Assembly (NCBI GenBank): GCA_028871795.1
Contig: JAGWMG010000001.1
Coordinates: 278,786 to 342,785 of the forward strand
DNA from: Alphaproteobacteria bacterium
Lineage (GTDB): Bacteria; Pseudomonadota; Alphaproteobacteria; Micropepsales; Micropepsaceae
Length of the DNA: 64,000 nucleotides
Direction of reading: 5' to 3'
A program made the position numbers and the translations under genes. Below, piece after piece: positions 9,364-62,275 of this stretch. The notes under the pieces are model-generated. The model searched no databases and was not told where the DNA came from. It saw nothing but the letters and a program-made list of their open reading frames with translations. How positions within the stretch are numbered: position 1 is the first letter of the stretch; each line of letters opens with the position of its first letter.

Positions 9364-9450
9364 CGTTCCGTTTTGAAACAAGTCCCGGCGCCGACGGGAC
9401 GACCGGCGCATTTATGGAAGGTTGACCCTCGTCCCTTATGCTGCCGCAAC

Positions 9451-10653
9451 ATGACGCAGAAAATTCTTCTGGCGACAACCGTCAAATGGCCGTCGGCCGC
9501 TTACCTTGCCGGCGCCTTCGCCGCGTTTGGCTGCTTTGTCGAAGCGGTATTCCCGCGTGGTCATGTGCTGGGCGTGAGCCGGCATCTCGGCCGCGCACAT
9601 ATCTATCATCCGTTACGGCCGCATTCCTCGTTTGTGGCGGCCATTACCGCCTCGAGCCCGGATCTGGTCATTCCTTGCGACGACCGCGCCGTATTGCGCC
9701 TCTTGTCGATTCAGGCAGCGGCGCCGGAGCTTTCGGCGCTGCTGGCCGAATCGTTGGGCAAGATCGAGTCCTATCCGCTGATGATGGCGCGCGGCCGCGC
9801 CAGCGCCATTGCGCAAGCCGAAGGGATTTCCACGCCGCTGACCGCGACGGCGGCGGACGAAAGCGAACTCGCGCGCGCTTTGGAGTTCGTGGGGTTGCCG
9901 GCGGTGTTGAAGGCGGATGGCAGTTGGGGCGGCGACGGCGTCGCCGTCGCACGGACGCAGGAAGAAGCGGGCCGGATTTTTCACAGACTTGCGGGTCCCC
10001 CGTCCAGGCCTCGAAGCCTTGCGCGCGCGGTCCTGCGCCAGGACCTGCATTTTCTGCATGAAGCGCTCGCTCCAAAGGCGGCGGCGGTCGAGGTGCAGCA
10101 GTTCATCGCGGGCGGGCCCGCGACCAGCGCCTTTGTCTGCCGCGACGGGAAAGTGCTCGCGTCAATTCACATGGACGTCGTGGAGTCACGGGGGCCGACG
10201 GGACCCGCTTCTCTGATCCGGCAGACGGATTGCAGCCGGATGGACGAGGCGGTCCGCCGGATTGCTCGCCGGTTCGCGCTCAACGGCCTGCATGGGCTGG
10301 ATTTCGTCCGCGACCAACGCGGCGTCCCGCATCTCATCGAAATCAATCCCCGCGCCACTCAGATCTGCCATCTGGCCTTGGGGGCAGGCCACGATCTTCC
10401 GTCGGCGCTTCTCGGCCTGCCGCCGCGGCCGATTACCGTCGACAAGCCTCTGATTGCACTCTTCCCGCAGGCGTGGTTACAGGGACGCCTCGCGCCGGAC
10501 GCTCGAGCCGCTTATCTGGATGTGCCTTGGAATGATCCCGCAGTTCTCGCCGCCCTTGCCGCGGCGACGCCAGACGAGCCTGCCCGGGCGCTCCAATTCT
10601 TAACTGGCGGACTTGCGCCGAACCGCACAAGGCCAAGCGGGCTGCGGCTTTAG
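9451..10653 (+). CDS. ATP-grasp domain protein in EPS cluster
   Basis: GLPAVLKADGSWGGDGVAVART and GLHGLDFVRDQRGVPHLIEINPRATQ ATP-grasp motifs; Met at 9451 is the likely start. Confidence 0.8.
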   Translation: MTQKILLATTVKWPSAAYLAGAFAAFGCFVEAVFPRGHVLGVSRHLGRAHIYHPLRPHSSFVAAITASSPDLVIPCDDRAVLRLLSIQAAAPELSALLAESLGKIESYPLMMARGRASAIAQAEGISTPLTATAADESELARALEFVGLPAVLKADGSWGGDGVAVARTQEEAGRIFHRLAGPPSRPRSLARAVLRQDLHFLHEALAPKAAAVEVQQFIAGGPATSAFVCRDGKVLASIHMDVVESRGPTGPASLIRQTDCSRMDEAVRRIARRFALNGLHGLDFVRDQRGVPHLIEINPRATQICHLALGAGHDLPSALLGLPPRPITVDKPLIALFPQAWLQGRLAPDARAAYLDVPWNDPAVLAALAAATPDEPARALQFLTGGLAPNRTRPSGLRL

Positions 10654-10768
10654 GACGATCGGGAGCGCCCAGAGCGTTAACCATTCGTCAGCCCAATCGG
10701 GAGAGACTCAGGTTAAAGGCGCCGAAGGGAGGCTTGCAGCCGACTGGAAGCTCGAGACAACACGGTCC

Positions 10769-12877
10769 ATGGCCATCGACATATCCGCCTCAGCTTTTGC
10801 TCCTCCGGCGCCTGCCACAGCATCCTTTGGCGTCGGCGATTTCCTGCGCGTGCTGGACGAGCGCCGCAGTTTGATCCGCAACATCACGCTGGGGGTCGCT
10901 GCCCTGACCTTGGCAGTGCTGCTGTACCTGCCGACGCTGTATTCGTCGTCTGCCGTCATCATGCTCGACCAGCGCAAGAACAACGTGGCCGACTTGTCTT
11001 CGGTGCTGTCCGCCCTGCCGACCGATCCGTCATCGGTGCAGAATCAAATTCAGGTCTTGTCATCGCGCGATCTGGCGCAACGCGTCATTGGCAAACTCAA
11101 GCTTTACGACGACCCGGAATTCAATCCGGCTTTGAACAGGAACGGCGCGCCGGGCATCCGCGATTTTGTCCGCTGGTTGAATCCGGCAAGCCCGCCACCC
11201 CGGAGCGCAAGCGCCGATCTCGAACGCGACGAAATCGTCGACACGTTCCTCAACCGTCTCGACGTGAGCGCGCTGGGCCTGTCGACGTCGATCACCGTGA
11301 CATTTGCTTCGCGCGATCCCGAGAAGGCCGCCTTGATCGCCAATACGCTTGCGGACGCCTACACCGAGGACCAGATCGACATCAAAGTCGCAGCCGCGCG
11401 CAAGGCGACGCAATGGTTGACCGACCGCATGGGTCAGCTGGCGCAACAAGTCCAGGCCGGGGAAAGCGCGGTTGCGCAATACAAGGCGGCGCACGATCTC
11501 GTGGAGTCGGCACAAGGCAATTCGCTGGTCGACCAGCAGCTTGTCGCGATTAATGCCCAGCTGATCGAGGCGCAATCGGACCTGGCGGAAAAAAAGGCGA
11601 CATACGACCACGTCCAGGCGCTGCTGCGCTCGGGAAACGCTGCGGATATTTCCCAGGTCGTTTCCTCGGCCCTGATCGTGCAGTTACGAACGCAGGAAGC
11701 CGACCTTATTCGTCAGGAAGCCGATCTTTCGACGCGTTACGGCCGCAACCATCCCAAGATGCTCGCGATCCAGACACAAAAGCGGGACCTGGAAAGCAAG
11801 GTCACGCAGGAGGCGGCGCGTATCGCCGGCTCGATCGCCAACGATCTGGCGGTCGCTCATGCGCACGTCGATTCGATCGCGGCGAGCCTTGCCCGCGTGG
11901 AAAAGCACGCCGCGAGCGACGATATTGCGCGCGTCAAGCTGAACGCGCTCGAAGCCAATCTGGCCTCCACGCGCGCCATGTACGAATCGTTTGTCACGCG
12001 CCTTCGCGCCACGCAGGACCAGGACGATCTGCAGAATCCGGAAGCGCGGATCATTTCCAGGGCTCCCATACCGACCGCGCCGTCCTCGCCGAAGCGTCTC
12101 TTGTTCTTCGCTGCATCACTGCCGGCTGGTCTGATGTTGGGGCTCTTGGCGGCGCTGCTGGCGGAGCGGTTTCAGGCGCCTCTGCCGCGGCAGGGACGTT
12201 TCTTCGAACGGCTGGCGCCCGCCCAGGCAAGGCCGTTTCCCGCGCTTTTGGGCGAACTTCCGGCTACTTCGGACTTCCGCGCCGCCGATTTTGTCGTCGA
12301 CAACCCTGGGGCTCGCTACAGCCAGGCCTTGTCGTTTCTTTTGGACCGCATCGCTCGGCGGCCGGGTTGGATCGTCAGTTTGACCGCGCCCGGCTCGGAT
12401 GCGGGAAAGTCGGTGATCGCGCTTTCCCTGGCGCGCGTGGCCGCAAGCCGAGGCCTGCGTACGGTCCTGCTGGACGGCAATTTTAACCAGCCCGTGATTG
12501 CCCGCGCCGCAGGTTTTGGCACCGCTCCCGACGGTATCGCGGAACTGCTGGGCGGATCGCTGCCGTTGTCGCGCGTCCTCTCAAGGGACCCAAGATCGGG
12601 CGCATTCCTGTTGTCGGCGGCACGTCCGGCGGCTGTGGCGCAACAGCTGTGGACGTCGCCCAAGATGGCGGAACTGCTGAGCTATTTTCGCCGGAATTGC
12701 GATCTTGTGATTGTGGACGGCGCGCCCGCAATGGCCGATATGCCCTTCCTGGGGCGGCTCTGCGACCAGGTTGTCCTCGTCGCACAGGCGCGTGCGTCTC
12801 AAGCGGTTCTGGAGCATGCCCTGCATGCGCTTCATGCCTTCGGGGTGGCTCAACCTGGACTCGTTATCACCCGATAG
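10769..12877 (+). CDS. Polysaccharide co-polymerase / BY-kinase-like protein (Wzz domain plus ATPase-like domain)
   Basis: Wzz-like N-terminus (DFLRVLDERRSLIRNITLGVAALTLAVLLYLPTLYSSSAVIMLD), coiled coil, second TM, then APGSDAGKSVIALSLARVAASRG. Confidence 0.85.
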   Translation: MAIDISASAFAPPAPATASFGVGDFLRVLDERRSLIRNITLGVAALTLAVLLYLPTLYSSSAVIMLDQRKNNVADLSSVLSALPTDPSSVQNQIQVLSSRDLAQRVIGKLKLYDDPEFNPALNRNGAPGIRDFVRWLNPASPPPRSASADLERDEIVDTFLNRLDVSALGLSTSITVTFASRDPEKAALIANTLADAYTEDQIDIKVAAARKATQWLTDRMGQLAQQVQAGESAVAQYKAAHDLVESAQGNSLVDQQLVAINAQLIEAQSDLAEKKATYDHVQALLRSGNAADISQVVSSALIVQLRTQEADLIRQEADLSTRYGRNHPKMLAIQTQKRDLESKVTQEAARIAGSIANDLAVAHAHVDSIAASLARVEKHAASDDIARVKLNALEANLASTRAMYESFVTRLRATQDQDDLQNPEARIISRAPIPTAPSSPKRLLFFAASLPAGLMLGLLAALLAERFQAPLPRQGRFFERLAPAQARPFPALLGELPATSDFRAADFVVDNPGARYSQALSFLLDRIARRPGWIVSLTAPGSDAGKSVIALSLARVAASRGLRTVLLDGNFNQPVIARAAGFGTAPDGIAELLGGSLPLSRVLSRDPRSGAFLLSAARPAAVAQQLWTSPKMAELLSYFRRNCDLVIVDGAPAMADMPFLGRLCDQVVLVAQARASQAVLEHALHALHAFGVAQPGLVITR

Positions 12878-13055
12878 AACGCTGGGCCCGCTTGACATTT
12901 TGCCCCGGGGGCGGTTCATACGCCGCGCGTTCAGGGTAACCATCTTGCAGAAATTCGGATTGAGTTTTCCGCGATAAATGAGATATGCGGAACACAGGAT
13001 CGTGCCTTCCTCGGACGCAGCCAATTTTCACCAGCGGTAGCAAAGCGAACCCCAC

Positions 13056-13691
13056 ATGAGCGAAACGCCTTCCGTGAGCCCAACACATTCCGCGCCGGCG
13101 CGTATGGCGACTGCCATCGGCGGTCTGCCTCCCGCGTTGACACGCATCGCGGTCTTCCTCGCCGTCTTCGTCATCGGCGGGGTCGGCGGCTGGATCGGCC
13201 GCGGTGTTCTGGCCGGGCCCGCCGACGTGCCGACCATGAACGTCTTTCAGGATTGGCGGCTGTTTTGCCCCGCGAGCAAGGACAAGGACTCGTCCTGTGA
13301 GATGAGCCAGGATGTGATCAATCAGCAGGCCGGCATGCGCGTGGCGCGGCTGGTCATGGCCAGGGACAAGGACAAGAGCATGGTGTTGGCCATCACCGTG
13401 CCGTTGCAGGTTCTCCTGGAACCGGGCATGGGGCTTAAGATCGGCGACGATCAGGTGCGCGTGTATCAGTACAAGACTTGCACGGAAGCCGGCTGCCTTT
13501 CGATCATCCCGGTGAACGATCAACTCGAGGCGGCTCTTTCGAAGTCGCAGAGTGGCGGCGTCGACGTCGCCCAGCCTAATGGAAAAGCCGTGGAACTGCC
13601 GTTCTCGATGAAGGGCTATGTCGAGTCCTACAAAGCGTTCTTGAGCAACGAATCCAAACGCAAGTCCTGGTGGCGGAGATTATGGTCATGA
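13056..13691 (+). CDS. Invasion-associated locus B (IalB) family protein
   Basis: FQDWRLFCP...CEMSQDVINQQAGMRVARLVM...PLQVLLEPGMGLKIGDDQ...YKTCTEAGCLSIIPV. Confidence 0.82.
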   Translation: MSETPSVSPTHSAPARMATAIGGLPPALTRIAVFLAVFVIGGVGGWIGRGVLAGPADVPTMNVFQDWRLFCPASKDKDSSCEMSQDVINQQAGMRVARLVMARDKDKSMVLAITVPLQVLLEPGMGLKIGDDQVRVYQYKTCTEAGCLSIIPVNDQLEAALSKSQSGGVDVAQPNGKAVELPFSMKGYVESYKAFLSNESKRKSWWRRLWS

Positions 13692-14305
13692 AGTCGGTTC
13701 GTATTCGATTTGCCGGTCTCTGTGCCGGCGTTGCGGCGCTTTCGCTTCTCACGGGCGCGGCGTCGGCGAAGGCCGCCGCTCCGGCGAAGACCGCCCCGCC
13801 GGTGTCCGCCGATGCCGGCAAGCCCGCCCAGCCGACCGAATCCAAGGACTTCGGCGATTGGACCGTACGCTGCTATCCGGCTTCTACGGGAACGCCTTGC
13901 GAGATGATCGAACTGCTGGTGAACAAGAAATCCGGCAGGCGCGTCCTTGGCGTGCTGATTGTCTATAATCCGTCGAACAATCAAAACGTGATGCAGGTCG
14001 CGATGCCGCTGGGCGTGATGCTGCAGAACGGCGCCGTGCTGAACGCCGACACCTACACGTCCGGCGTCCTGCACTATCGCCTTTGCGACATGCAGGGTTG
14101 CTATGCTCTCACGGCATTGGACGATGGCGCGATCAAGGCGCTTGGACGTGCGACCAAGGCGCAAATGAATATCGTGTCCGCGGACGGCAAGAAGTTCGAC
14201 ATCGGCTTTTCGTTGAACGGATTCACCGCGGCCCATAGCGCGCTGATGGACATGACGCGCAAAGCGCCGCCCCCGGCGGCGCCTTCCGCACCACCGGGTC
14301 AGTAA
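13688..14305 (+). CDS. Invasion-associated locus B (IalB) family protein, signal-peptide bearing
   Basis: FGDWTVRCYPASTGTPCEMIELLVNKKSGRRVLGVLIVYNP...PLGVMLQNGAVL...YRLCDMQGCYAL; paralog of preceding gene. Confidence 0.85.
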   Translation: MKSVRIRFAGLCAGVAALSLLTGAASAKAAAPAKTAPPVSADAGKPAQPTESKDFGDWTVRCYPASTGTPCEMIELLVNKKSGRRVLGVLIVYNPSNNQNVMQVAMPLGVMLQNGAVLNADTYTSGVLHYRLCDMQGCYALTALDDGAIKALGRATKAQMNIVSADGKKFDIGFSLNGFTAAHSALMDMTRKAPPPAAPSAPPGQ

Positions 14306-41125: not shown

Positions 41126-41493
41126 CTACGGCCTCCTTGCGGGCGCCTGTTTCGGGCCGCAGTTTTCAGAACCACAGTTAATTTCCGCACGGCCTTCTTT
41201 TCGTCCGGCGTCATGTCTTCGCGCGCTGCCTTGGCATAAACCATCAGCAGATAGAGCGGGCTTTCGGGGTCGTAGTAGAAGTAAACGACCCGAACCCCAC
41301 CTCTCTTGCCGCTCCCGGCTCTCAGCCAACGGAGCTTTCGGACACCGCCAGTCTCCGGAATGATGTCCCCGGCCTCGGGGTTGCGCGCGATGAAATCCAC
41401 GAAATCGTCGTGTTCGGCTGTGTCCCAAATATCGTTCGCCTGCCGCACAAAGAGCGGGGTTTCGGCGACGGTAATAATTGGCCGACCAGCCAT
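41122..41493 (-). CDS. RelE/HigB-family toxin
   Basis: FVRQANDIWDTAEHDDFVDFIARNPEAGDIIPETGGVRKLRWLRAGSGKRGGVRVVYFYYDPESPLYLLMVYAKAAREDMT. Confidence 0.9.
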   Translation of the reverse strand: MAGRPIITVAETPLFVRQANDIWDTAEHDDFVDFIARNPEAGDIIPETGGVRKLRWLRAGSGKRGGVRVVYFYYDPESPLYLLMVYAKAAREDMTPDEKKAVRKLTVVLKTAARNRRPQGGRR

Positions 41494-41505
41494 GAAGCCC
41501 TATAT

Positions 41506-41551
41506 ACGCCAATGGCGCCCAATTATCCAGCAAAAAGACGCCAATGGCGCC
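41506..41551. promoter_or_regulatory. Two direct repeats ACGCCAATGGCGCC, 32 bp apart start-to-start, candidate TA operator
   Basis: Identical 14-mers at 41506-41519 and 41538-41551 immediately upstream of the toxin gene. Confidence 0.6.
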
Positions 41552-41615
41552 TACGCGGCCCACCGTGTGGCCGTAGGCGCGCAATTTTTGTGGACATCGT
41601 TCTAAGAATATTGAC

Positions 41616-41633
41616 CACAACGAATATGTTGTG
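41616..41633. promoter_or_regulatory. Inverted repeat CACAAC-GAATAT-GTTGTG, candidate operator of the ImmA/XRE gene
   Basis: Perfect 6-bp arms 14 bp upstream of ATG 41647. Confidence 0.5.
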
Positions 41634-41646
41634 TTCATATTCCGTC

Positions 41647-42936
41647 ATGCCCATCCTGAATCACCGAGATTATCGATCTGCCAAGACCCTAATGGCGCAA
41701 ATCTCACGAGCCTTAGGCCCGGACGGCGTCATTGAAGACATTGCTTCATGCCTGCCGGCTGATGTCGCCGCCGCAAGACAGCAAACCCTCAAAACCGAGC
41801 TTCAACGTCTGCAGGCCGACATTGCCGCCTACGAAAAACTAAGAGGTCAAGAGAACAACGGCGAAGCTGAGATTGATGTCGACGATCTTGGACTCCTCCC
41901 GATCATTGGGCGAATCACACGCCGGCTGTCGCAACGCGAACTTGCCGAACGGCTCGATATCAAGGAACAGCAAGTTCAACGGTACGAAAGCGAGAGATAC
42001 GCCGGCATTAGCCTTGCGCGATACCAAAAGACACTGGATGCGCTCGGAATAGAACTACAGCCCCGGTTGATTCCATCATGGAACGCAGACGAGCCGGATG
42101 GCCCACCGAACGAACCCCAATTTCAAATTGCGCCAGATATTCTCCGCGAAATCCGCAAGCGCAAATGGGTTGAACTTCCAAACGGCGTCGGGAGCGATGA
42201 CGTTGCACACATCATCGGTAGATACGTCGAGCACGCCTCTCAATTGTCGAAAGGAACGCCGTTCCACCGAAAGTCAACAGCGGCAAACTCGGAATCGGCT
42301 GAAAGCGCACTGAAGGCGTGGCGCGCGCGCGTTTTGCGCACCGGCGCCGAACAGCGCGCAAGAGTGAAAACGAAATTCAATATCGCCGATACGACTTGGC
42401 TTAAGAAAATCGTGACGTTGAGCGTCTATCCGGACGGTCCGATTCGTGCCGCCGAACTACTGCGGGAAAAGGGCATAATACTCGTCATCGAGCCACAGCT
42501 GCCGCACACGCTTCTCGATGGCGCAGCCCTTCTGCTATTGGAGTCGGTTCCCGTCATTGGTCTCACGCTTAGACACGACCGGCTGGACAATTTTTGGTTC
42601 ACATTGTTGCACGAGTTAGGACACATCTTCCTGCATTTCAATCACGGCCTCGATGCCGGTTTTCTCGATGATTTGGACGATGGCAGTAGCGTAAAAGCGG
42701 AATCGGAAGCGGATAGCTTCGCCCAGTCCCACTTACTTCCAGATGAGGTATGGAGTTCGTCGCCAGCGCGATTCTCGAAATCGGCCGAATTACTAAAGAG
42801 CTTCGCCGAATCGCGTAATATTCACCCTGCCATCGTCGCGGGTAGAATCAGAAGAGACAGGAATAATTATCGGATGTTCGATGAGATGGTGGGGCGCGGG
42901 CAAGTTCGTCGCTTGTTTCTCCATCAAACGGCGTGA
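41647..42936 (+). CDS. XRE-family HTH plus ImmA/IrrE metallopeptidase domain protein
   Basis: LSQRELAERLDIKEQQVQRYESERYAGIS HTH; FTLLHELGHIFLHFNHG zincin motif with ESEADSFAQSHLLP. Confidence 0.9.
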   Translation: MPILNHRDYRSAKTLMAQISRALGPDGVIEDIASCLPADVAAARQQTLKTELQRLQADIAAYEKLRGQENNGEAEIDVDDLGLLPIIGRITRRLSQRELAERLDIKEQQVQRYESERYAGISLARYQKTLDALGIELQPRLIPSWNADEPDGPPNEPQFQIAPDILREIRKRKWVELPNGVGSDDVAHIIGRYVEHASQLSKGTPFHRKSTAANSESAESALKAWRARVLRTGAEQRARVKTKFNIADTTWLKKIVTLSVYPDGPIRAAELLREKGIILVIEPQLPHTLLDGAALLLLESVPVIGLTLRHDRLDNFWFTLLHELGHIFLHFNHGLDAGFLDDLDDGSSVKAESEADSFAQSHLLPDEVWSSSPARFSKSAELLKSFAESRNIHPAIVAGRIRRDRNNYRMFDEMVGRGQVRRLFLHQTA

Positions 42937-42948
42937 AGGACGCAGACT

Positions 42949-44097
42949 ATGTACCCTTTAGACGAGAAATTTTATTCCACGGCGCTACGAGCGAAAGCGG
43001 GAGAATTCGTTGCCTGTTTGGATCTCAACAATCCCAGCAAAGAGCGCCTCCTCCCCGATTTCATTCTGCCGCCTCTGGCGGCTCAGGAAAACAACGCGTT
43101 ATCGATTGATGGCGTAATCGAAGTTCAAGTTGGCAAAATCTCCGCTCATTGGGGATCGCGCCCGTGCCTGTTGGACCCGAGATTCCTCAGATTTGACCCT
43201 GACGGCGGAGTCGACGCCAGTCGCATAAGCCAATTGCTGGCGCGAACGCGCCTTTCTAGATGCCGCGTCATTCCCGTCATAGATCTAACCACGGACTTTT
43301 ACCGAGTTTCGGCAGTGAGTGCCCATATCAGGATCGCCAAAAGTGGCGCCGCGCTCCGCGTGACGCTAGGCGACCTAAACAATCTAGAACTGAAGCAGCT
43401 CATCGACACTCAGCTGACAAATCTCGGCGTGTCATCGAACGAATGTTTGATTGTTCTCGATCTCTCCGATGCGGATCTTTCGGAACCCGAGGAGTTTGCA
43501 GAATTCGCCAGTGATTGGCTTTTCAAACTTCGTGAGTTTGGAATGTGGCCCCGGATAATTCTGCAAGCCACAAATTACCCGCGGACCAATCCAGCGCCGG
43601 CCAAAGGTCAGACGAGGGTTTCACGCGCGGAGTGGTTGATATGGCAATGCATTATTCAACTTGATACGAAAATCAGCGATTTCGTTATGTTTGGTGATTT
43701 CGGAGCCGACAATGCGCATATGGATTTTGCGCCTGGTGGTCGCGCCATAACACATCTTCGTTATGCGACCGAGACCGGCTGGCTGGTGGTGAGGGGTGAG
43801 GCCAAGCGTGAAACGATCAGATCGGTGGCTGATCTTATTGTGAAATCTGGTTCTTATAGCGGTGAGCTGTTTTCTGCGGGAGACGAATTTATCGCAAGCC
43901 GCGCGCGCGGACTGGCCGGCGTTGGCAATCCAATGATCTGGCGATCCGTTAATATGAACCATCACATGACGCTTGTGACCGCAAATCTGGGTACGCTTTA
44001 TGGAACGCCTGTCCCACAGGCCGCGCAGCGTCGAAAGCCTGTGCAGGAAGAACTTTTCGTCCATCCTATGGGTCAAACTATTCCGGTTGCAGAATAG
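42949..44097 (+). CDS. T4 beta-protein-like (Beta_protein/sce7725-like) family protein
   Basis: YP.l..KAGEF start, GAALRVTLGDLNN, ITHLRYATETGWLVVRGEAKRE, GNPMIWRSVNMNHHMTLVTA typical of the family. Confidence 0.65.
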   Translation: MYPLDEKFYSTALRAKAGEFVACLDLNNPSKERLLPDFILPPLAAQENNALSIDGVIEVQVGKISAHWGSRPCLLDPRFLRFDPDGGVDASRISQLLARTRLSRCRVIPVIDLTTDFYRVSAVSAHIRIAKSGAALRVTLGDLNNLELKQLIDTQLTNLGVSSNECLIVLDLSDADLSEPEEFAEFASDWLFKLREFGMWPRIILQATNYPRTNPAPAKGQTRVSRAEWLIWQCIIQLDTKISDFVMFGDFGADNAHMDFAPGGRAITHLRYATETGWLVVRGEAKRETIRSVADLIVKSGSYSGELFSAGDEFIASRARGLAGVGNPMIWRSVNMNHHMTLVTANLGTLYGTPVPQAAQRRKPVQEELFVHPMGQTIPVAE

Positions 44098-47920: not shown

Positions 47921-48493
47921 ATGAAGCTCACCGATTCCCAACTCGTAATCCTCTCCGCTGCCGCCAAGCGCGATGACGGCGCCATCCTGCCGCTTCTAAA
48001 GTCCGTAAAGCTCAACAAGGGCGCAGTTACGCTCGTGCTCAAGAGCCTTCTCAAGCACAAGCTCGTCACTGAACGAGATGCAGCACCCGGCGATGAAGCC
48101 TGGCGTGAACAGAGGGACGGACGGCGCTGCACGCTCGCGATCACGAACGCCGGTCTCAAGGCCTTGGGCGTCGAGGCCGCGCCTGAGTCGAAGGCTACTC
48201 AAACGAAGCCTGAATCCGTTCAGCGAAAGGCCGATGTAAAGACGACCGCGGCCGTGGCGAAGAACCCTTTGAGGGCGCCAAAACGCAAGGGGACAAAGTT
48301 GTCCCTCCTGATCGACCTCATGAAACGCAAAGGCGGAGCCACCATCGAGGAAGCCGCAAAGGCGACAGGCTGGCAGCACCATTCCGTGCGCGGCGCGATC
48401 AGCGGCGCGCTGAAAAAGAAGCGGGGACTCGAAGTGACCTCGACCTCGGTCGAAGGCCGCGGCCGCGTCTATCGCATCCCGGCGCAGGCCTGA
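47921..48493 (+). CDS. DUF3489 domain protein
   Basis: KLSLLIDLMKRKGGATIEEAAKATGWQHHSVRGAISGALKKKRGLEVTSTSVEGRGRVYRI. Confidence 0.92.
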   Translation: MKLTDSQLVILSAAAKRDDGAILPLLKSVKLNKGAVTLVLKSLLKHKLVTERDAAPGDEAWREQRDGRRCTLAITNAGLKALGVEAAPESKATQTKPESVQRKADVKTTAAVAKNPLRAPKRKGTKLSLLIDLMKRKGGATIEEAAKATGWQHHSVRGAISGALKKKRGLEVTSTSVEGRGRVYRIPAQA

Positions 48494-48506
48494 TCTCCCC
48501 ACGGGC

Positions 48507-48707
48507 ATGGGAGTAAAATCAATGGATACGAGGAACATCAGCCCGTTCTTGCGGCGTCCGCTGCGCAGCCTTCAGGAGTTCATTCAGAAGCGACCTCCGC
48601 AATCGAAGGACGCGCAGATGGTATCGAAGGAGAATGAGCCCAATGATCCGGTAACCACGCAACCCCCTATCGGTGGATCTTCAACCGATACGTCAGGCAG
48701 GGGGTGA
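48507..48707 (+). CDS. Small hypothetical protein (66 aa)
   Basis: ORF between DUF3489 and DUF2924 genes, overlapping the latter's start by 4 nt. Confidence 0.4.
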   Translation: MGVKSMDTRNISPFLRRPLRSLQEFIQKRPPQSKDAQMVSKENEPNDPVTTQPPIGGSSTDTSGRG

Positions 48708-49198
48708 TCGTGGCTCGAACATTGGCTCAGCTGAAGGAACGCTTGGAGGAACCCTCGAAACTCGGCGCGCTTGATCTGCGCGCCGAGTGGGCTGCTTTGT
48801 TTGGCCGCCCCTCTCCGCGGCACGTGAGCCGCGACATCCTCTTGCGGGGTATGGCCTATCGGCTGCAGGAGCAGATGTATGGCGGGCTCAAGCGGGCCAC
48901 ACTCAAGCAGCTGAAGCGCCTGGCCGCTGAACTTCGGGATGGCGGCTCGATCGCGCCGGCGCCGACCGCGTTGCTGCGGCCGGGCGTGCGGCTATTACGG
49001 GAATGGAATGGCGAAACCCAGATCGTCGAGGTGCTACCGGACGGCTTTGCCTGGCGCGGCGCTCAATATCAGTCGTTGTCGGCAATCGCCCGCGCCATCA
49101 CCGGGGTCCAATGGTCCGGACCAAAGTTCTTTGGGCTGCTCGATAAGCACCGCAAGGAAGCCACCGATCTGAGGGATCTGGCGGCGGCCCTCAAATGA
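48704..49198 (+). CDS. DUF2924 domain protein
   Basis: RHVSRDILLRGMAYRLQEQMYGGLKRATLKQL...LLREWNGETQIVEVLPDGFAWRGAQYQSLSAIARAITGVQWSGPKFFGL. Confidence 0.93.
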   Translation: MIVARTLAQLKERLEEPSKLGALDLRAEWAALFGRPSPRHVSRDILLRGMAYRLQEQMYGGLKRATLKQLKRLAAELRDGGSIAPAPTALLRPGVRLLREWNGETQIVEVLPDGFAWRGAQYQSLSAIARAITGVQWSGPKFFGLLDKHRKEATDLRDLAAALK

Positions 49199-50934
49199 CC
49201 GAGCGCCAGAAAAAGACACTGCGCTGCGTCATATATACCCGCAAATCTTCGGAGGAGGGGCTGGAGCAGGAGTTCAACTCCCTCGAAGCGCAGCGGGAGG
49301 CCTGCGAGGCATATATAAGGAGTCAGGCGCACGAAGGGTGGCGCCTCGTTTCCGAGCGGTTCGACGATGGTGGGTTTTCGGGAGGGACGCTCGAACGCCC
49401 CGCACTCCAGCGGCTGCTTCAGAAGATCCGCGAGAAGCGCGTCGACGTCATCGTTATCTACAAGATCGACCGGCTAACCCGTTCGCTCATGGACTTTGCG
49501 AAGCTGGCCGAACTCTTCGAAAGCGAAGGTGTCTCGTTCGTCTCGGTAACGCAGCAGTTTAGCACCACGACCTCCATGGGCCGGTTGATGCTGAATGTCT
49601 TGCTTTCCTTCGCCCAGTTCGAACGTGAGATCACCGGGGAGCGCATCCGTGACAAGATCGCCGCCTCCAAAAAGAAGGGTATCTGGATGGGCGGCAACGT
49701 GCCCATCGGCTACGAGTTCAAGGACCGGGCTCTCATCATCAACGATGACGAGGCCGAGACGGTAAGGACGATATTCCGGCTCTATCTGGAGCAAGGCAAT
49801 GTGCGGAAGGTCTGGGTGGAGGCCGGTCGGCTTGGTCTCAAGACCAAAGTGAGACCCAAGTCGGATGGGCGGATCATTGGCGGGAACAGGTTCTTCCCGG
49901 GACATATATATAGCGTCCTCAAATGCCCTATCTATGTCGGGCGGATTCACCACAAGGGTGAGACCTTCCCTGGCAACCATGCCGCCATCATCGATTCTGA
50001 GACCTGGGATGCGGTACAGGCAAGACTAGCTGGGAATCGCGTGGACCGGCGTTCGTATCCCAACGCCAAAGATCCGAGCCCGCTCGTAGGCCTCATCTTT
50101 GATTCCAAAGGGACCCGCTTCACGCCAACTCACACTTCGAAGGGCGGTAAGCGTTACCGCTATTATGTCGACCAGGCCCTGACCAAAGGCATTACACCTG
50201 CGACGGCGGATATACCGCGTATTCCGGCGATGGAGATCGAGCATATCGTGCGCAAGGGGTTCGCCGATTTCTTGGCGAACACGAAGAATCTGCTGGATGC
50301 GTTGGGCGACGGTTTGAATGGTGTCGCGACCGAGCGCGCGCTCAAGCAGGCGCGTGCGCTGGAAGCGGAACTACGCGCGGCCACACCGTCATCTTGGATG
50401 CCGCTCATCCGACCGGCGCTACAACAGATTGTCATTGAAGAAAGGGCGATCCGGTTACGAATCGTGCGCGATGGGCTCCGCACAATTCTGTCGCCGCAGA
50501 GCGACCACAACTTAGCTCAATCTTCGGACGACACTGAAGAAGAGTATAGGCAGCAGATCTGTGAACATGTGATCGCCGCGCGTATGCGAACACGGAGCGG
50601 TGTCATAAAGCTCATCATTGGAAACGGTGCAGAGCGCACAATGACTGAGCCCGACTTAACGCTGTGTAAGATGATCGCCCGCGCACACGGATGGATCGAG
50701 CGGTTAAGTGCTGGACACGTCCATTCGGTACGAGCCCTCGCGAAAGCCGAAGGCATCACTGAATCATACGTCACGCGCGTCCTGCGGCTTGGCTTCCTTG
50801 CGCCTTCGGTCGTCGACACGATCCTCGACGGGCGACACCCGGTCGAGATCACTGCAGACCAGCTAACCTTGCGGGAGGACATCCCGACGATCTGGGTAGA
50901 TCAGAGGCGGCAGTTGGGATTTGATCCTGTTTAG
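49195..50934 (+). CDS. Large serine recombinase (resolvase/recombinase family)
   Basis: RCVIYTRKSSEEGLEQEFNSLEAQREACEAYI, VIYKIDRLTRSLMDFAKL, TTSMGRLMLNVLLSFAQFEREITGERIRDKIAASKKKGIWMGG; ATGA overlap with DUF2924. Confidence 0.96.
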   Translation: MTERQKKTLRCVIYTRKSSEEGLEQEFNSLEAQREACEAYIRSQAHEGWRLVSERFDDGGFSGGTLERPALQRLLQKIREKRVDVIVIYKIDRLTRSLMDFAKLAELFESEGVSFVSVTQQFSTTTSMGRLMLNVLLSFAQFEREITGERIRDKIAASKKKGIWMGGNVPIGYEFKDRALIINDDEAETVRTIFRLYLEQGNVRKVWVEAGRLGLKTKVRPKSDGRIIGGNRFFPGHIYSVLKCPIYVGRIHHKGETFPGNHAAIIDSETWDAVQARLAGNRVDRRSYPNAKDPSPLVGLIFDSKGTRFTPTHTSKGGKRYRYYVDQALTKGITPATADIPRIPAMEIEHIVRKGFADFLANTKNLLDALGDGLNGVATERALKQARALEAELRAATPSSWMPLIRPALQQIVIEERAIRLRIVRDGLRTILSPQSDHNLAQSSDDTEEEYRQQICEHVIAARMRTRSGVIKLIIGNGAERTMTEPDLTLCKMIARAHGWIERLSAGHVHSVRALAKAEGITESYVTRVLRLGFLAPSVVDTILDGRHPVEITADQLTLREDIPTIWVDQRRQLGFDPV

Positions 50935-51429: not shown

Positions 51430-51467
51430 TTTCCGGTTTTCCCGCGGACAGACGATTGGAGGGTTAG
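51430..51467 (+). promoter_or_regulatory. Candidate sigma-factor-dependent promoter box, copy 1 (TTTCCGGTTTTCC-N21-TTAG)
   Basis: 13-mer identical to that at 56282-56294 with the same 21-nt spacing to TTAG; lies about 60 bp upstream of the sigma factor gene. Confidence 0.65.
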
Positions 51468-52884: not shown

Positions 52885-55800
52885 ATGGACAGCTTCGGCG
52901 CCGTGCGCGCGCTTGCGAATATGAAGCACGCGCTTATGCGGGCGAAGGCCGGCGGCAAATCCTCGGCAGCCGCTCTGTTGACCGCCGCGCGCGAGACTGA
53001 AGCCGTCACCGCCCAGAGCGTAGCTCCGGATCACCCGCTTCTGGCGGGCGGTGATGGCGCTCTCCACCGCGCAGGCTCGGCGCGATCGATCTATATCTCA
53101 GCAGCCATTGATCCCGAATTGGCCGCCTATGTCGAAGCGCATGAGTTTGGGCATCTGTGGATTGAGACGCCGAATGATCCGGTGATCGTCCCGCGTGGAT
53201 CCGATCCCGGTACACCGGAGGAGCCGACCCCGCTGGGGCTGCGGCGTGTCGAGGTCTATAGTGCTCAGGAACATCGCGAGCGGTGCGCCAATGTGTTTGC
53301 GCGCGAGTTTCTGCTCCCACGCGATGAGGCGCGGCGTCTGTTCATTGACGGTGGTCAATCGGCCGTCAGCATTGCGAGCAGCCTTGGCCTCCCCACCGGG
53401 CTTGTCCATCAGCAACTCGCCGTTGCACTGCTGTTGCCGGAGCCAGCGTCAGCCAACGCCAAGGCGGCGCCGAGCGAAAGGCCGGGGCTCGACGCGTCGC
53501 AAAAAAAAGCGGCCGAGCACGAAGGATCGCCGCTCCTGGTTGAAGCAGGTCCCGGGACCGGCAAAACGCGCACACTCATTGCCAGGGTCGAGCATCTCTT
53601 AGCCAATCACGTTCCGACGCCATCGATCTTGGTGCTCACGTTCTCGAACAAAGCGGCTCGAGAGATCAGGGAACGCGTTGCCGCAAGCGTTCCGGCCGCC
53701 GCGACCGAGTTGTGGGCGGGTACCTTCCATGCCTTCGGTCTCGAACTCGTGCGCAAGTTCGGTCATCTGGATGGGATTCGCGAGCCCGTCCAGTTGCTCG
53801 ATCAGGCGGACCAGCTTGCCTTTCTCGAGCGTGAACTTCCGGCGCTGGGCCTGGATCACTATCTGCGGCTGCATGAGCCATTGCTGGAACTTCGGTACAT
53901 TCTGGGAGCGATTTCGCGTGCGAAGGATGAGGTGTTTTCGCCTGCCGACTACGCGGCTGCCGCCGTCCGCATGCAGAATGCGGCGCGGAACGACGAGGAT
54001 AGGCTCAAGGCGGACAAGGCTGGGGAAGTCGCGCGCGTCTATAACCACTATGAGAGGCGGATCCGGGCCGATGGCATTGTCGACTTCGCCGATTTGATCA
54101 ATCGGCCGATCGAGATCCTGCGCAAACACCCAGACATATGTGACGAACTGCGAACACAATATCGGCATTTGCTCGTCGACGAATACCAGGACGTCAACCG
54201 TGCCAGCGCGCTCTTGCTCAAGGAACTCACCGGTGACGGCGAACGTCTTTGGGTGGTCGGCGATGCGCGCCAGTCGATCTACCGATTTCGCGGGGCTGCT
54301 CCCATTAACACACGAGATTTCGAGAAGGATTACCCGAACGGTAAGCGCAAACCGCTGGCTGTGAACTACCGCTCTCGCAAGCAGATTGTTGATACCTTCG
54401 GCGCCTATGCGAAGGGTATGCGGGTGGGCAGAGGACGAAGTTGCGAGCTTGAAGCCAAGCGCGGCGAAGGGGTCAATCCCGTCGACTGCCATATCGCGAC
54501 AGACCGCAATGCGGAAATCGCAGGGATCGCGGCGACGATTGCCGCGCTTAAAGCGGACGGCGTGGCCTATCGCGACCAGGCAGTGCTCTGCCGCACGCAT
54601 GGCAATCTGGAGAAGATCGCGTTGGGTCTGGAAGCAGCCGGATTCCCGGTTCTATATCTCGGCGATCTGTTCGAGCGGCCCGAGATCCGGGACCTGCTTG
54701 CGCTACTCTCCTTTGTCTCCGAGCCGCACAGAGGCGGGCTCCACCGCGTCGCGACCTTGGCTCCGTATCGCACGCCCTTGCACGACGTGCGCGTCCTGCT
54801 CGACCATGCGGCGGCCACCGAAAAGACACCATTAGCGGCGCTCGCCGATGCGGGTGCACTCCCAGGTCTCTCAGCAGACGGGCGCAGGGCGCTGGTATGT
54901 CTCAGCGCCGATGTCGCGTCTGTTGGCTTCAAAACAGGTCCCGGCGCATTCTTGTGCGACATGCTGTTTAACCGCGGTGCGTTGCTACGCGCGCATCTTG
55001 AAGGCAACACGGCGGCCGATCAGCACCGTCGTCTGGCTGTCCATCAATTTCTGCAATTCGCGATTGAGAACGATACGCCCGGCGAAGGCGATCCCAAGCG
55101 CAGCTTGCTCAATTGGGTGCGCCGCCTCGAAGTGTTCGGTGACGAGCGTGCGCTTCGCGACCCGCCTGTGGCGGTAGAGGAAATCGACGCCGTACGGTTG
55201 ATGACGGTCCATGCCAGCAAGGGATTGGAATTCAAGGTGGTGCACTTGCCGACCTTGGGCGCCGGAATCTTTCCGCTGCGCTGGCAAGGCGAACGGTGTC
55301 CGGCGCCGCTTGGCATGTTGCCGACCATTGTCGCGGATGACCATAAGGAAGAGGAGGAGTGCCTCTTCTTTGTCGCGCTCTCGCGTGCCCGTGATCATCT
55401 TTCATTGTCGCGGGCCCAACGCTATTCGGACAAGCAGGCCTCAAACCCGTCGGATGCCCTGAAGTCGATCGCGTCTCGGCTGCCGCGCGCGTGCGACGGC
55501 CCTCCCACTTGGACAGGTCGCCTTCCCGACGTCATTGATACCGGCGAGCGCGCGGACTTAAAGGTTACCGTCCGCGAGCATGATGGAGGCGACATTGAAC
55601 TCTATCTCGGCTGTCCGCGACGTTATCTCTATCAAGTCGTGCTGGGGCTTAGCGGGTCGCGCGAGGATAACGGATATGTACGTTTCCATCGTGCGGTCTA
55701 TCGGGTATTGCGATGGATGGGCGGCCAGGGCGATGTCATCGAGACAGGCGCTCTGATGGCCGAGTTCGAGCGCGCCTGGTCGGATATCGGTCCATTCGAT

Positions 55801-56265
55801 CATCCACTTAAGGATCTGTATCGAAAGGCGGCTCGGCGCATTCTAGACCAAGCGACCGGACGATCTCGGGTCGGGATATCCTTCGGTGACGTGCTGCATG
55901 TTGTCATTGATGGCCACAACATCTCGATTCCGATCGATGAGGTAGAGCGTTCCGCCAACGGGTTCACGATCCGGCGTTTGCGGACAGGGCGTCCGCCAAA
56001 AAAGCCCGATCAACGCGTGCTTCATGCGCTCATGGCGGAAGCCGGCCGACAGGCGCATGGCGGCGGAGGGCGCTTCGAGCTGCAATATCTCACCACCAAC
56101 GAGGCGGTCGGCGTTTCACTCGCCGGGGTCATGACAGATCGGCTCGAAAAGACTCGTGAGGCGCTGGCCGGCTTGGCTTGCGGTCTCTTCGCAGCCGACC
56201 CAGACAACCGCGAGAATTGTCCGCGCTGTCCGCACTACTTCATCTGTCCAGCCGTTCCACACTGA
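52885..56265 (+). CDS. Fusion protein: N-terminal ImmA/IrrE-like zincin, UvrD/Rep SF1 helicase, C-terminal Fe-S RecB/AddB-like (degenerate PD-(D/E)XK) domain
   Basis: VEAHEFGHLWIE; LLVEAGPGTGKTRTLIARV; HLLVDEYQDVNRAS; VVGDARQSIYRFRGA; RLMTVHASKGLEFKVVHLP; LYLGCPRRYLYQ...NCPRCPHYFICP. Confidence 0.92.
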   Translation: MDSFGAVRALANMKHALMRAKAGGKSSAAALLTAARETEAVTAQSVAPDHPLLAGGDGALHRAGSARSIYISAAIDPELAAYVEAHEFGHLWIETPNDPVIVPRGSDPGTPEEPTPLGLRRVEVYSAQEHRERCANVFAREFLLPRDEARRLFIDGGQSAVSIASSLGLPTGLVHQQLAVALLLPEPASANAKAAPSERPGLDASQKKAAEHEGSPLLVEAGPGTGKTRTLIARVEHLLANHVPTPSILVLTFSNKAAREIRERVAASVPAAATELWAGTFHAFGLELVRKFGHLDGIREPVQLLDQADQLAFLERELPALGLDHYLRLHEPLLELRYILGAISRAKDEVFSPADYAAAAVRMQNAARNDEDRLKADKAGEVARVYNHYERRIRADGIVDFADLINRPIEILRKHPDICDELRTQYRHLLVDEYQDVNRASALLLKELTGDGERLWVVGDARQSIYRFRGAAPINTRDFEKDYPNGKRKPLAVNYRSRKQIVDTFGAYAKGMRVGRGRSCELEAKRGEGVNPVDCHIATDRNAEIAGIAATIAALKADGVAYRDQAVLCRTHGNLEKIALGLEAAGFPVLYLGDLFERPEIRDLLALLSFVSEPHRGGLHRVATLAPYRTPLHDVRVLLDHAAATEKTPLAALADAGALPGLSADGRRALVCLSADVASVGFKTGPGAFLCDMLFNRGALLRAHLEGNTAADQHRRLAVHQFLQFAIENDTPGEGDPKRSLLNWVRRLEVFGDERALRDPPVAVEEIDAVRLMTVHASKGLEFKVVHLPTLGAGIFPLRWQGERCPAPLGMLPTIVADDHKEEEECLFFVALSRARDHLSLSRAQRYSDKQASNPSDALKSIASRLPRACDGPPTWTGRLPDVIDTGERADLKVTVREHDGGDIELYLGCPRRYLYQVVLGLSGSREDNGYVRFHRAVYRVLRWMGGQGDVIETGALMAEFERAWSDIGPFDHPLKDLYRKAARRILDQATGRSRVGISFGDVLHVVIDGHNISIPIDEVERSANGFTIRRLRTGRPPKKPDQRVLHALMAEAGRQAHGGGGRFELQYLTTNEAVGVSLAGVMTDRLEKTREALAGLACGLFAADPDNRENCPRCPHYFICPAVPH

Positions 56266-56281
56266 GCGCAACACAGGCGAC

Positions 56282-56319
56282 TTTCCGGTTTTCCAGGGGC
56301 GCTGCGACTAACCCTTTAG
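56282..56319 (+). promoter_or_regulatory. Candidate sigma-factor-dependent promoter box, copy 2 (TTTCCGGTTTTCC-N21-TTAG)
   Basis: Same 13-mer and spacing as at 51430-51467; just upstream of the Ubl gene. Confidence 0.65.
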
Positions 56320-56366
56320 AGCGTCCACTCCAATGGTGGGATGGACCAATAAGAAGGGTTCGCACA

Positions 56367-56882
56367 ATGCGTCCGATTGACGTTTTTATCCAAGGCGAGG
56401 GTCTCGCCGACATCATGGTCGCCAGCACGGCGCCGCACCACAGCCTCGCCGAAGTACTCGCCGCCCTCGAACATCCGATCCTGAAGGAAGAAGGTTTCCT
56501 CGTCTTTATCGAAGACGTGCCGGTGCCGCTCGATCCTGAAACGATCGTCGAGGAACTGTTGCCACTTGCCACCGCTGACGACGCGATCCTTGTTCCGTTG
56601 CGCCTCCATGTCAGTCACTGCCATCATATCGACGTTTCGGTGCGCTTCAACGGCGAGGACGCAAAGCGACGGTTCCCGCCGAGCACGACCATCGCACGCG
56701 TTCATCACTGGGCGGCCCGGCGCGCGTTTCATCTGGCGCCGCGCGACGCCGCCGAGCATGTCTTGCAGCTTCAGGGCTCGACCAAGCGTCCCGATCGGGA
56801 TGTGCATCTCGGGTCGTTGACGGATCGCAAGATTTGCGCCGTGGCCTTTGACCTCGTTCCCCGCAAGCGGGTGGAGGGCTGA
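56367..56882 (+). CDS. bilA-like: Tandem ubiquitin-like protein (BilA/ISG15-like)
   Basis: 171 aa; second half [30 protein letters not shown]...[40 protein letters not shown] fits a beta-grasp Ubl; operon with E2, JAB, E1. Confidence 0.78.
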
Positions 56883-56884
56883 GC

Positions 56885-57358
56885 ATGGGGGACGCGATTT
56901 CGCCCGCGGAGGCTGTCTTCCGCAACCATCTGTCCGGTGGTCGTTTTCGCAACGGAGCGGCTACCGGACGCTGGCGCTCGGTGTCGGTGACGTGGCCGCA
57001 CGCTGTGTTCGGGGTGCGCGCCGCAGATGGCATCGAATACGGGCTGCGGTTTGAATGCAGTGACTATCCGCGTACGCCGCCAACGGCGCAGCCCTGGGAT
57101 CTCGATCAGAACACTCCGCTCAGTCACAATCTGTGGCCGAGCGGCCGGGAGCGTGTGCCGCTGGCCTTCAATCCGGGCTGGAAGAACGGCACCTGCCTCT
57201 ACCTTCCGTGTGATCGTCAATCTATCGAGGGCCACGCGAACTGGTATCAGCTTCATCCCAGCCTGATCTGGGATCCCGCAGCTGGAATTGTTCACTACCT
57301 TCGCGTCGTCGCCGACCTCCTAAACTCCGGTGACTACGGAGGCCGCCGTGCAGCCTGA
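56885..57358 (+). CDS. bilB-like: E2-like ubiquitin-conjugating fold protein (BilB-like)
   Basis: [17 protein letters not shown] parallels the E2 active-site segment (HPN...G.xClD.L); located between Ubl and JAB genes. Confidence 0.78.
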
Positions 57359-57833
57359 TCCCCGTCTTCGTCTGACACGGCACATGTGGACGGAACTGAC
57401 CGGTGAGCTCGGTCGCCGGACCGAGGGGTGCCATGAGTCCGGCGCCTTCCTTCTTGGGCGGAAAGATGAAGATGGTCGGCGAGCGCTGTCGCTTGTCTAT
57501 TACGACGAGCTTGATCCGCGGGCCTATGACTCTGGGGTCTGCATCTTGCACGCGGATGCGTTCGGACGGCTGTGGGAGCGGTGCGCCGAGCTTGGCTTGG
57601 CGGTCGTGGCTGACGTGCATGTTCACGGCTGTGGTGCCGCACAGAGCCGCGCAGACCGCGAAAACCCGATGATCGCGCGGCCGGGCCATCTGGCGTTGAT
57701 TCTTCCTCTCATGGCGCGGGTGCCTGTCCGCCGATGGGCGGTCGGACTCTACGAATATCTAGGCGATCACAGGTGGCGCGCACACGGGGGGTGCAATGTC
57801 GCCCGCGTTTTGAAGATCGAGGATAAACCATGA
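57330..57833 (+). CDS. bilC-like: JAB/JAMM (MPN+) metallo-deubiquitinase-like protein (BilC-like)
   Basis: [11 protein letters not shown] (JAMM Glu) and [22 protein letters not shown] (HxH...SxxD); GTG start at 57330 or 57348 overlaps E2 gene. Confidence 0.87.
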
Positions 57834-59185
57834 CGCATTTGGAAGAGGTCGCCGATCGCCTGAACCGAATGGTCAAGCTGGCACTCGACACCGGTGAGGC
57901 GTCGAGCCTTGAGGAAGCCCAGCGAATTTTCGCAGGATACCGCCTGCAGATCATCGTTGGGGCTGATGTGGCGCAGGAGCCGGTGTTGCAGGCTGCGTTG
58001 TTGACGGCGGTGAATTGTGCGGTGCGCACTTTGCTGGGTGGTGTCACCGTGGTTGGCGCCACCGGTGCGTTGCGGGTTCTGCTGCCGCCTTTCGGCGACC
58101 TCGAAGAAGCGATTGTGGGATTGGGTGGCCGATTGATCAGGGAAACCAACCCCGAGACGTCGACTTTGGTGATTGGAGAGGTCGATGAGAAGGGTCTGGA
58201 ACCCTTGGCGATCCGGGCAACTTTTAATGAGTGGTGCGGCGGCGTCGTTCCGGTCGCCAATCACGAGCGGCTCGCGGAGACTGGTGCGTTCACGCCGGCC
58301 GGTGTCCTCGCGGGTGCGTTGGGCGTGTCAGAGATTTTTCAGAGGTTGCGTGGCGGAATGCCGATGGCCTGTCGACGTGGTGTCGGCCTCAATCTCTGGC
58401 GGCCGGAACGCGATTGGTTGCGCGGTGAGTTCGCGCCTGCGCTGGATTGTTTGCCGTCGGCGGCTTGGCTTGTCGGTCTGGGCAATCTCGGCCAAGCCTA
58501 TCTCTGGACGCTTGGATTGCTACCCTACGGGGGAGAGGGCGCCGAACTTGTGCTACAGGATATAGATGTGCTGGCACCGTCGAACCTCAGTACGTCGCTT
58601 TTGACGACGCCGGAGCGCCTCGGACGGCGCAAGACACGCGCGATGGCCGATTGGGCGGAGGTGCGGGGCTTCAAGACCGCGATCATCGAGCGCGGTTTCG
58701 GTGCCGACTTTCATATCGGTCCGCGCGAACCTCCCGTCGCGCTGATCGGCGTCGACAATGCCTTGGCACGGCAATCGGTCGAGGACGTCGGTTTCGAGCG
58801 GGTGATTGAGGCGGGCCTTGGCGGCGGACTGCAGGATTTTCTCGGTATCGATCTGCATACTTTTCCGGCATCGAAGCCAGCCCGTGAAGTCTGGCGCGAC
58901 ACTGCTGTATCCGACATCGATCTCGGACAACCGGCATATAAGGCGATGCTGGAACAATCCAAGGATCAGTGTGGGATTGTTCGGCTTGCCGGTCGGACCG
59001 TTGGGGCACCGTTTGTAGGGTCGGCGGCGGCGGCGCTGGTCATCGCAGAGCTGATGAGGCTGACGCTAGGGGGCGCGCGGTACGAGATGATCTCGTGTCA
59101 TCTCCGCGACCTCGAGGGGCGATTCGTGGTGGGCGGCAATCCCTGGTCGGCGTTCAACCCAGGCGGCATCCGGTTGGCGGCGTGA
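57830..59185 (+). CDS. bilD-like: E1-like ThiF/MoeB-family ubiquitin-activating protein (BilD-like)
   Basis: AWLVGLGNLGQAYLWTLGLLP...LVLQDIDVLAPSNLSTSLLTTPERLGRRKTRAMADW Rossmann; QCGIVRLAGRTVGAPFVGSAAAALVIAELMRL; ATGA overlap with JAB gene. Confidence 0.88.
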   Translation: MTHLEEVADRLNRMVKLALDTGEASSLEEAQRIFAGYRLQIIVGADVAQEPVLQAALLTAVNCAVRTLLGGVTVVGATGALRVLLPPFGDLEEAIVGLGGRLIRETNPETSTLVIGEVDEKGLEPLAIRATFNEWCGGVVPVANHERLAETGAFTPAGVLAGALGVSEIFQRLRGGMPMACRRGVGLNLWRPERDWLRGEFAPALDCLPSAAWLVGLGNLGQAYLWTLGLLPYGGEGAELVLQDIDVLAPSNLSTSLLTTPERLGRRKTRAMADWAEVRGFKTAIIERGFGADFHIGPREPPVALIGVDNALARQSVEDVGFERVIEAGLGGGLQDFLGIDLHTFPASKPAREVWRDTAVSDIDLGQPAYKAMLEQSKDQCGIVRLAGRTVGAPFVGSAAAALVIAELMRLTLGGARYEMISCHLRDLEGRFVVGGNPWSAFNPGGIRLAA

Positions 59186-61991: not shown

Positions 61992-62195
61992 GACCATCGA
62001 AATGTCGTATCGCCGAAATGGCCCGACAAAGACGAAGGCGTGTGCATCGTCCATTTGGCCCTCCAGAGACGGTCTCTGGCGTCCGAACGTGATTCAGCCA
62101 GTGCGAATTCGCGCGACATTTCCGTCGGCTGCAGCGCACAATGATTTATTCTAAGCTATTGATATTAAAGGAGAAAGGCACTGGCGGAGCCGGAG
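61992..62195. repeat. Dispersed repeat, copy C, contiguous with the tRNA-Ser 3' end
   Basis: Similar to copies A and B; palindrome CAGAGAC-G-GTCTCTG at 62064-62078. Confidence 0.85.
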
Positions 62196-62275
62196 GGATT
62201 CGAACCCTCGATACGGTTTTTCAGCCGTATAACGGTTTAGCAAACCGCCGCCTTCAGCCTCTCGGCCACAGCTCC
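62182..62275 (-). tRNA. tRNA-Ser (anticodon GCU), CCA encoded
   Basis: Reverse complement GGAGCTGTGGCCGAGAGGCTGAAGGCGGCGGTTTGCTAAACCG...GGTTCGAATCCCTCCGGCTCCGCCA; acceptor, anticodon and T arms fold; loop TTGCTAA. Confidence 0.97.

Follow-up and report, generated by a model that had tools for sequence, protein, structure and literature searches.

A helicase-fused M78 protease with an inactive nuclease-like domain, the probable sensor of a proposed regulatory module beside bacterial ubiquitin-like operons

CapP and IrrE/PprI are ssDNA-activated proteases that cleave HTH repressors, and the M78 protease substrates known so far, DdrO and CapH, are DNA-binding repressors (PMC10904395, PMC13373217). 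In the IrrE/PprI–DdrO system of Deinococcus, the ssDNA-activated M78 protease cleaves the HTH regulator (PMC10904395), and CapH+CapP, which consists of an HTH repressor and a stand-alone ssDNA-activated M78 protease, lies upstream of CBASS and Bub operons. CapK+CapS and CapW also lie upstream of immune operons, including Bil and Bub operons, and are responsive to DNA damage (PMC13373217). Here we describe a three-gene module that adjoins ubiquitin-like (Ubl) conjugation operons, starting from a window of 64,000 nucleotides of an alphaproteobacterial genome of the family Micropepsaceae (the whole stretch of DNA that was analysed; Table 1). We found no published description of this module in open papers, a scope outside which the key Bil/Bub papers lie.

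The module consists of a gene for an ECF-like sigma factor, a gene for a Cro/CI-type HTH protein of around 200 amino acids and a gene for a fused protein, in an order that is conserved in relatives (three-gene profiles). Genes 1–3 are packed: the start of gene 2 overlaps gene 1 by 11 nt, and gene 3 begins 3 nt beyond the end of gene 2. Downstream of the fused gene, bilA, bilB, bilC and bilD follow in order and constitute an antiphage ubiquitin-like operon (PADLOC); the start of bilA was assigned by comparison with relatives and from the presence of a ribosome-binding-like AAGAAGGG.

Table 1 Positions of the module, the promoter-like elements and the Bil operon in the window.
Feature	Position	Strand	Basis
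P1, TTTCCGG-N16-CGATT	51430..51457	+	25 nt from its end to sigma-gene ATG
Gene 1, ECF-like sigma-70 factor, 261 aa	51483..52268	+	Region 4 clear; whole-length ECF match
Gene 2, Cro/CI (XRE)-type HTH protein, 207 aa	52258..52881	+	Family consensus; kept in module loci
Gene 3, fused M78 zincin, UvrD-type helicase and predicted inactive Fe-S PD-(D/E)XK domain	52885..56265	+	Intact ORF, ATG, 1126 aa
P2, TTTCCGG-N16-CGACT	56282..56309	+	Within 98-nt gap before bilA
bilA, ISG15-like ubiquitin-like protein	56364..56882	+	PADLOC BilA 1e-52
bilB, E2-like	56885..57358	+	PADLOC BilB 6e-60; Pfam DUF7665 5e-61
bilC, JAB/MPN peptidase	57330..57833	+	PADLOC BilC 8e-62
bilD, E1-like	57830..59185	+	PADLOC BilD 2e-165

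Pfam places Peptidase_M78 at residues 56–178 of the fused protein (4e-8, above cut-off), UvrD-helicase at 203–484 (8e-69), UvrD_C at 765–844 and PDDEXK_1 at 904–1122 (6e-9, above cut-off), the last with near-complete coverage of its profile and reaching the C terminus. The helicase part spans residues ~200–850, matches the PcrA model (3e-88) and carries the complete UvrD/PcrA SF1A motif set, Walker A and DExx included. In 22 full-length relatives, the helicase motifs AGPGTGKT (Walker A), DEYQD, GDxxQSIYRFRG, NYRS and HxxKGLEF are invariant or nearly so, as are the zincin residues H86, E87 and H90 (within HEFGH, residues 86–90) and E132, the Glu further downstream, in the (E)xxANxFAxxLL motif, that marks membership of M78. 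Domain matches and motif conservation thus confirm that one open reading frame encodes both an M78 zincin and a UvrD helicase, as originally predicted from the window. When the full-length protein was used as a query for related loci, it retrieved mostly housekeeping UvrD-type helicases; elsewhere in the 2.98-Mb genome it has one other match, to the helicase part alone, which resembles an ordinary UvrD-type helicase. The C-terminal part has relatives in 86 plasmid records, and a search of phage records for relatives of this domain returned none.

The C-terminal domain appears to have lost the metal-binding DxK motif of a nuclease throughout the family. In a profile–profile alignment with AddB proteins of related genomes, in which the match is weak yet the register is consistent with the motif order, ‘ADRID...IVDYKTG’ of AddB pairs with ‘PIDEVER...TIRRLRTG’, and Arg stands at the Asp as well as the Lys position of DxK. 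This is the register in which the original prediction had read TIRRLRTGR as a DxK region with both residues changed. The alignment of homologues that it had proposed as a check points the same way: among 33 aligned C-terminal domains, the Asp position holds D in none and Arg in 24, and the Lys position holds K in 5 and Arg in 23. As the Asp is absent throughout these relatives, the loss is a family trait rather than a local mutation, and an active nuclease was rejected on this count. The predicted loss of nuclease chemistry stands for DxK and needs tempering elsewhere: the first nuclease His (H935) is kept in 27/33 and the motif-II D1018 in 24/33 relatives, so that the active site has been erased partly, not wholly. 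The Fe-S-type cysteines C910 (in GCPRRYLY), C1112, C1115 and C1121 (C-x2-C-x5-C, in CPRCPHYFIC) are kept in 33, 33, 33 and 32 of 33 relatives, respectively. An Fe-S cluster is predicted from these four residues, in agreement with the earlier view that the fold had been kept. A search of PDB profiles with this domain returned only the Fe-S loop of endonuclease III (E 0.17, not significant), and the AlphaFold model of the domain (mean pLDDT 44) was too low in confidence for use. As far as sequence can tell, the domain matches the RecB/AddB/Cas4 fold profile, lacks the catalytic D-x-K and is an inactive member; a zincin and a helicase that are predicted to be live, joined to Fe-S cysteines and a predicted dead nuclease, are a trait of the family.

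Gene 1 matches Sigma70_r4_2 (4e-11, Pfam) and, over residues 100–251, TIGR02983 (2e-11), and its family profile matches ECF sigma entries in the PDB. Sigma region 4 is clear in 16/21 members and Pfam sigma region 2 is found in 1/21; the window protein is matched by whole-length ECF models. The gene-2 family is assigned from its consensus, which matches HTH_26 (3e-5) and HTH_3 (5e-5), both above cut-off; a consensus may outscore every individual sequence behind it, and no Pfam family matched the window protein when it was queried by itself. Profile matches of gene 2 in the PDB are weak, with a 434-repressor design among the best, and its AlphaFold model (mean pLDDT 57) was too low in confidence for use. 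Anti-sigma genes often overlap their sigma gene, and gene 2 is a candidate anti-sigma factor or repressor. It is also a good candidate substrate of the fused protease: its HTH fold class is that of DdrO and CapH, which would make it the natural target.

A Ubl conjugation operon adjoins the module in all 32 loci examined. The operon is BilABCD in 12 (window included) and multiubiquitin–E1–DUF6527 or a close variant in 20. Genome sampling with the domain profile or the protein as the sole query yielded nine of the 32 loci, again including the window, and each of these nine shows the linkage. Given linkage in 32/32 loci, we reject the possibility that the module is a chance neighbour of the bil genes. 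Individual loci show interruption, decay or rearrangement: a transposase gene interrupts the sigma gene in L093, L097 has its fused gene in two separate frames, transposase genes separate the module from its operon in L088, and in L090 and L107 the module and the multiubiquitin operon are divergently oriented. A decayed copy without a Ubl operon in Roseomonas (L102) is outside the 32 counted. One Escherichia coli chromosome carries an intact module with a multiubiquitin operon (L242, locus 6563–13836) downstream of fimH, with IS elements in the region; a match to the fused gene over at least 80% of its length was found in only 1 of 5,426 E. coli genomes. In the window, genes for DUF3489, DUF2924 and a large serine recombinase (47921–50934, + strand) lie just upstream of the module and a tRNA-Ser gene lies at 62182–62275, which suggests a mobile island that includes the module and the bil genes.

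Between gene 3 and a codirectional Ubl operon there is a gap of 65–120 nt, and in the window this gap and the region upstream of the sigma gene each contain a bipartite, ECF-type element with the consensus TTTCCGG-N16-CGAYT. The pattern TTTCCGGTTTTCC-N10-CGAYT, with ≤1 mismatch allowed, has exactly two sites in the 2.98-Mb genome, P1 and P2, and a reversed control pattern has none. With a shorter pattern, P1 and P2 are the sole exact genomic matches, and one-mismatch matches are at background level. A loose form of the motif occurs in the gap of 20/29 loci, compared with a mean of 0.5 and a maximum of 3 in shuffles. The motif was first spotted by eye in plasmid loci, so the tests on other loci weigh more: there it precedes 9/10 module-linked Ubl operons (one of the ten, L003, had already been seen before the test) versus 1/11 unlinked ones (Fisher P = 3e-4). 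Gap and upstream sites are more alike within a locus than between loci (0/5,000 permutations). Where the motif diverges, some loci carry one particular variant at the gap and upstream sites alike; in L086, L103, L105 and L087, the elements depart from the common motif and match each other within each locus, which hints at co-evolution of sigma factor and promoter. Many Bil-type loci, including that of the window, have a copy before the sigma gene. In most multiubiquitin-type loci the gap copy alone was found and no upstream copy, so self-activation is not universal. The divergent loci L090 and L107 lack the motif, and another type of promoter must serve their multiubiquitin operons. We infer that the motif is a recognizable −35/−10 promoter, probably that of the gene 1 product.

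The tree of the fused protein, in which the longest branches are uncertain, requires at least three switches between Bil and multiubiquitin operon types, and the module therefore moves between systems. Among 399 Pseudomonadota genomes, 12 have multiubiquitin genes, accompanied by the module in 4 and by a divergent HTH_3 + M78 pair in 3; in a further sampled genome (G522), the module accompanies a variant operon, one that had escaped the search for multiubiquitin genes. The multiubiquitin operons L227, L229 and L233 have a divergent, CapH+CapP-like HTH_3 + M78 pair in place of the module. BilD occurs in four genomes, including that of the window, and the module is optional, because the Bil operons of the other three lack it. 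The module is thus one among several interchangeable controllers. Elsewhere in the window, a gene for a second HTH_3 + Peptidase_M78 protein of 508 amino acids (41410–42936, + strand) is followed by a PF14350 ‘Beta_protein’ gene (42949–44097, + strand); this pair may be a further locus of the defence type that has a controller of its own.

We consider it probable that the three genes form a regulatory module for Ubl defence operons, with the fused protein as its sensor-protease. In the model that we propose, the ECF-like sigma factor would recognize dedicated promoters, namely that of the Ubl operon and, in many Bil-type loci, its own, and the Cro/CI-type protein would keep either the sigma factor or its promoters silent. 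When phage infection or damage gives rise to abnormal DNA in the form of a free end, a gap or ssDNA, the helicase motor would engage it together with the inactive Fe-S nuclease domain, which would clamp without cutting. Engagement would activate the attached zincin, gene 2 would be cleaved, and the sigma factor would then drive transcription of the Bil or multiubiquitin operon and, in a positive feedback loop, of the module itself. The earlier reading of the window, DNA binding or sensing coupled to proteolysis, is consistent with all of our findings, but it had missed both the sigma partner and the downstream Bil operon. In its full form, the HTH-type anti-sigma factor would be destroyed by a DNA-translocating helicase-protease whose nuclease domain has been turned into a DNA clamp that does not cut, and a private sigma factor would switch on Ubl conjugation. 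The model would then define a new class of controller, in which an intracellular DNA signal, rather than an envelope signal, frees an ECF sigma factor through proteolysis; we advance this version tentatively, as a serious possibility that falls somewhat short of an even chance. The weak sigma region 2 of most gene-1 members, the missing upstream copy of the motif in most multiubiquitin-type loci, the lack of the motif in L090 and L107 and the optional nature of the module all count against the model.

Several other readings share part of this evidence. Gene 2 may be a plain DNA-binding repressor of the DdrO/CapH type that acts on P1 and P2 and is cleaved by gene 3 on DNA damage, with a sigma factor that is constitutive or merely needed for transcription. 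The HTH_26/HTH_3 match of the gene-2 family and the occurrence of CapH+CapP in the corresponding position of sister loci are both what such a repressor would lead one to expect; against them stand the overlap with the sigma gene, an arrangement frequent among anti-sigma genes, and the finding that a sigma-type −35/−10 pair was the only shared element seen in most multiubiquitin loci. On balance we regard a plain repressor as rather unlikely.

More distant from our model is the proposal that the fused protein is itself the defence effector, a DNA-processing enzyme similar to Gabija or RecB that is encoded with the Ubl operon incidentally and has the zincin as an accessory. Its intact helicase motifs and strong helicase match, with GajB among the best PADLOC matches, would suit an effector, but the nuclease is predicted to be inactive family-wide, a sigma factor and an HTH protein accompany the fused gene, the gap with its promoter motif separates that gene from the Ubl operon, and CapH+CapP takes its place elsewhere; this makes an effector role improbable. 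The C-terminal domain might also still cut nucleic acid through a migrated active site built on H935 and D1018. Their frequent retention is compatible with such cryptic activity, which we nevertheless consider highly improbable given the uniform absence of the DxK Asp, the prevalence of Arg at both DxK positions and the lack of any conserved acidic-x-Lys replacement in the alignment of the 33 domains.

If the sensor-protease model is correct, the controllers of bacterial immune operons gain another family, and Ubl conjugation is tied to a sensor that is amenable to assay in vitro. The model is testable in laboratory E. coli, because an intact module and multiubiquitin operon are present on an E. 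coli chromosome. The fused protein is also a clear-cut example of an enzyme domain that appears to have lost catalysis family-wide while retaining its Fe-S ligands, and the module exemplifies a regulator that has passed between one Ubl system and another.

Parts of the module have counterparts in known systems. AddA/AddB and RecBCD likewise combine an SF1 helicase with a PD-(D/E)XK domain, and we take the CxxCx5C and distant Cys pattern of the fused protein to resemble that of AddB; RecC also carries an inactive nuclease domain. The fused protein differs from these enzymes in being a single chain with an N-terminal zincin and in having lost the DxK Asp in every relative. ECF sigma/anti-sigma pairs that are freed by proteolysis share the overlapping genes for the sigma factor and its partner and the bipartite promoter before their own operon, whereas the presumed protease of the module is soluble and DNA-engaging, not membrane-bound. 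CapK+CapS and CapW rely on kinase/STAS or WYL chemistry and have no protease, helicase or sigma factor. IrrE/PprI–DdrO has neither a helicase nor a sigma factor, and its regulon differs. Closest is CapH+CapP, in which an M78 protease also stands beside a Cro/CI-type HTH protein and adjoins an immune or Ubl operon, and beside some multiubiquitin operons of the same type such a pair takes the place of the module as controller. The protease of the module is not a separate protein, as CapP is, but is fused to a UvrD helicase and to a nuclease-like Fe-S domain that is predicted to be inactive, and instead of simple derepression there is an ECF-like sigma factor that has a promoter motif of its own. 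The module thus resembles CapH+CapP in its probable working, yet is not a member of that system.
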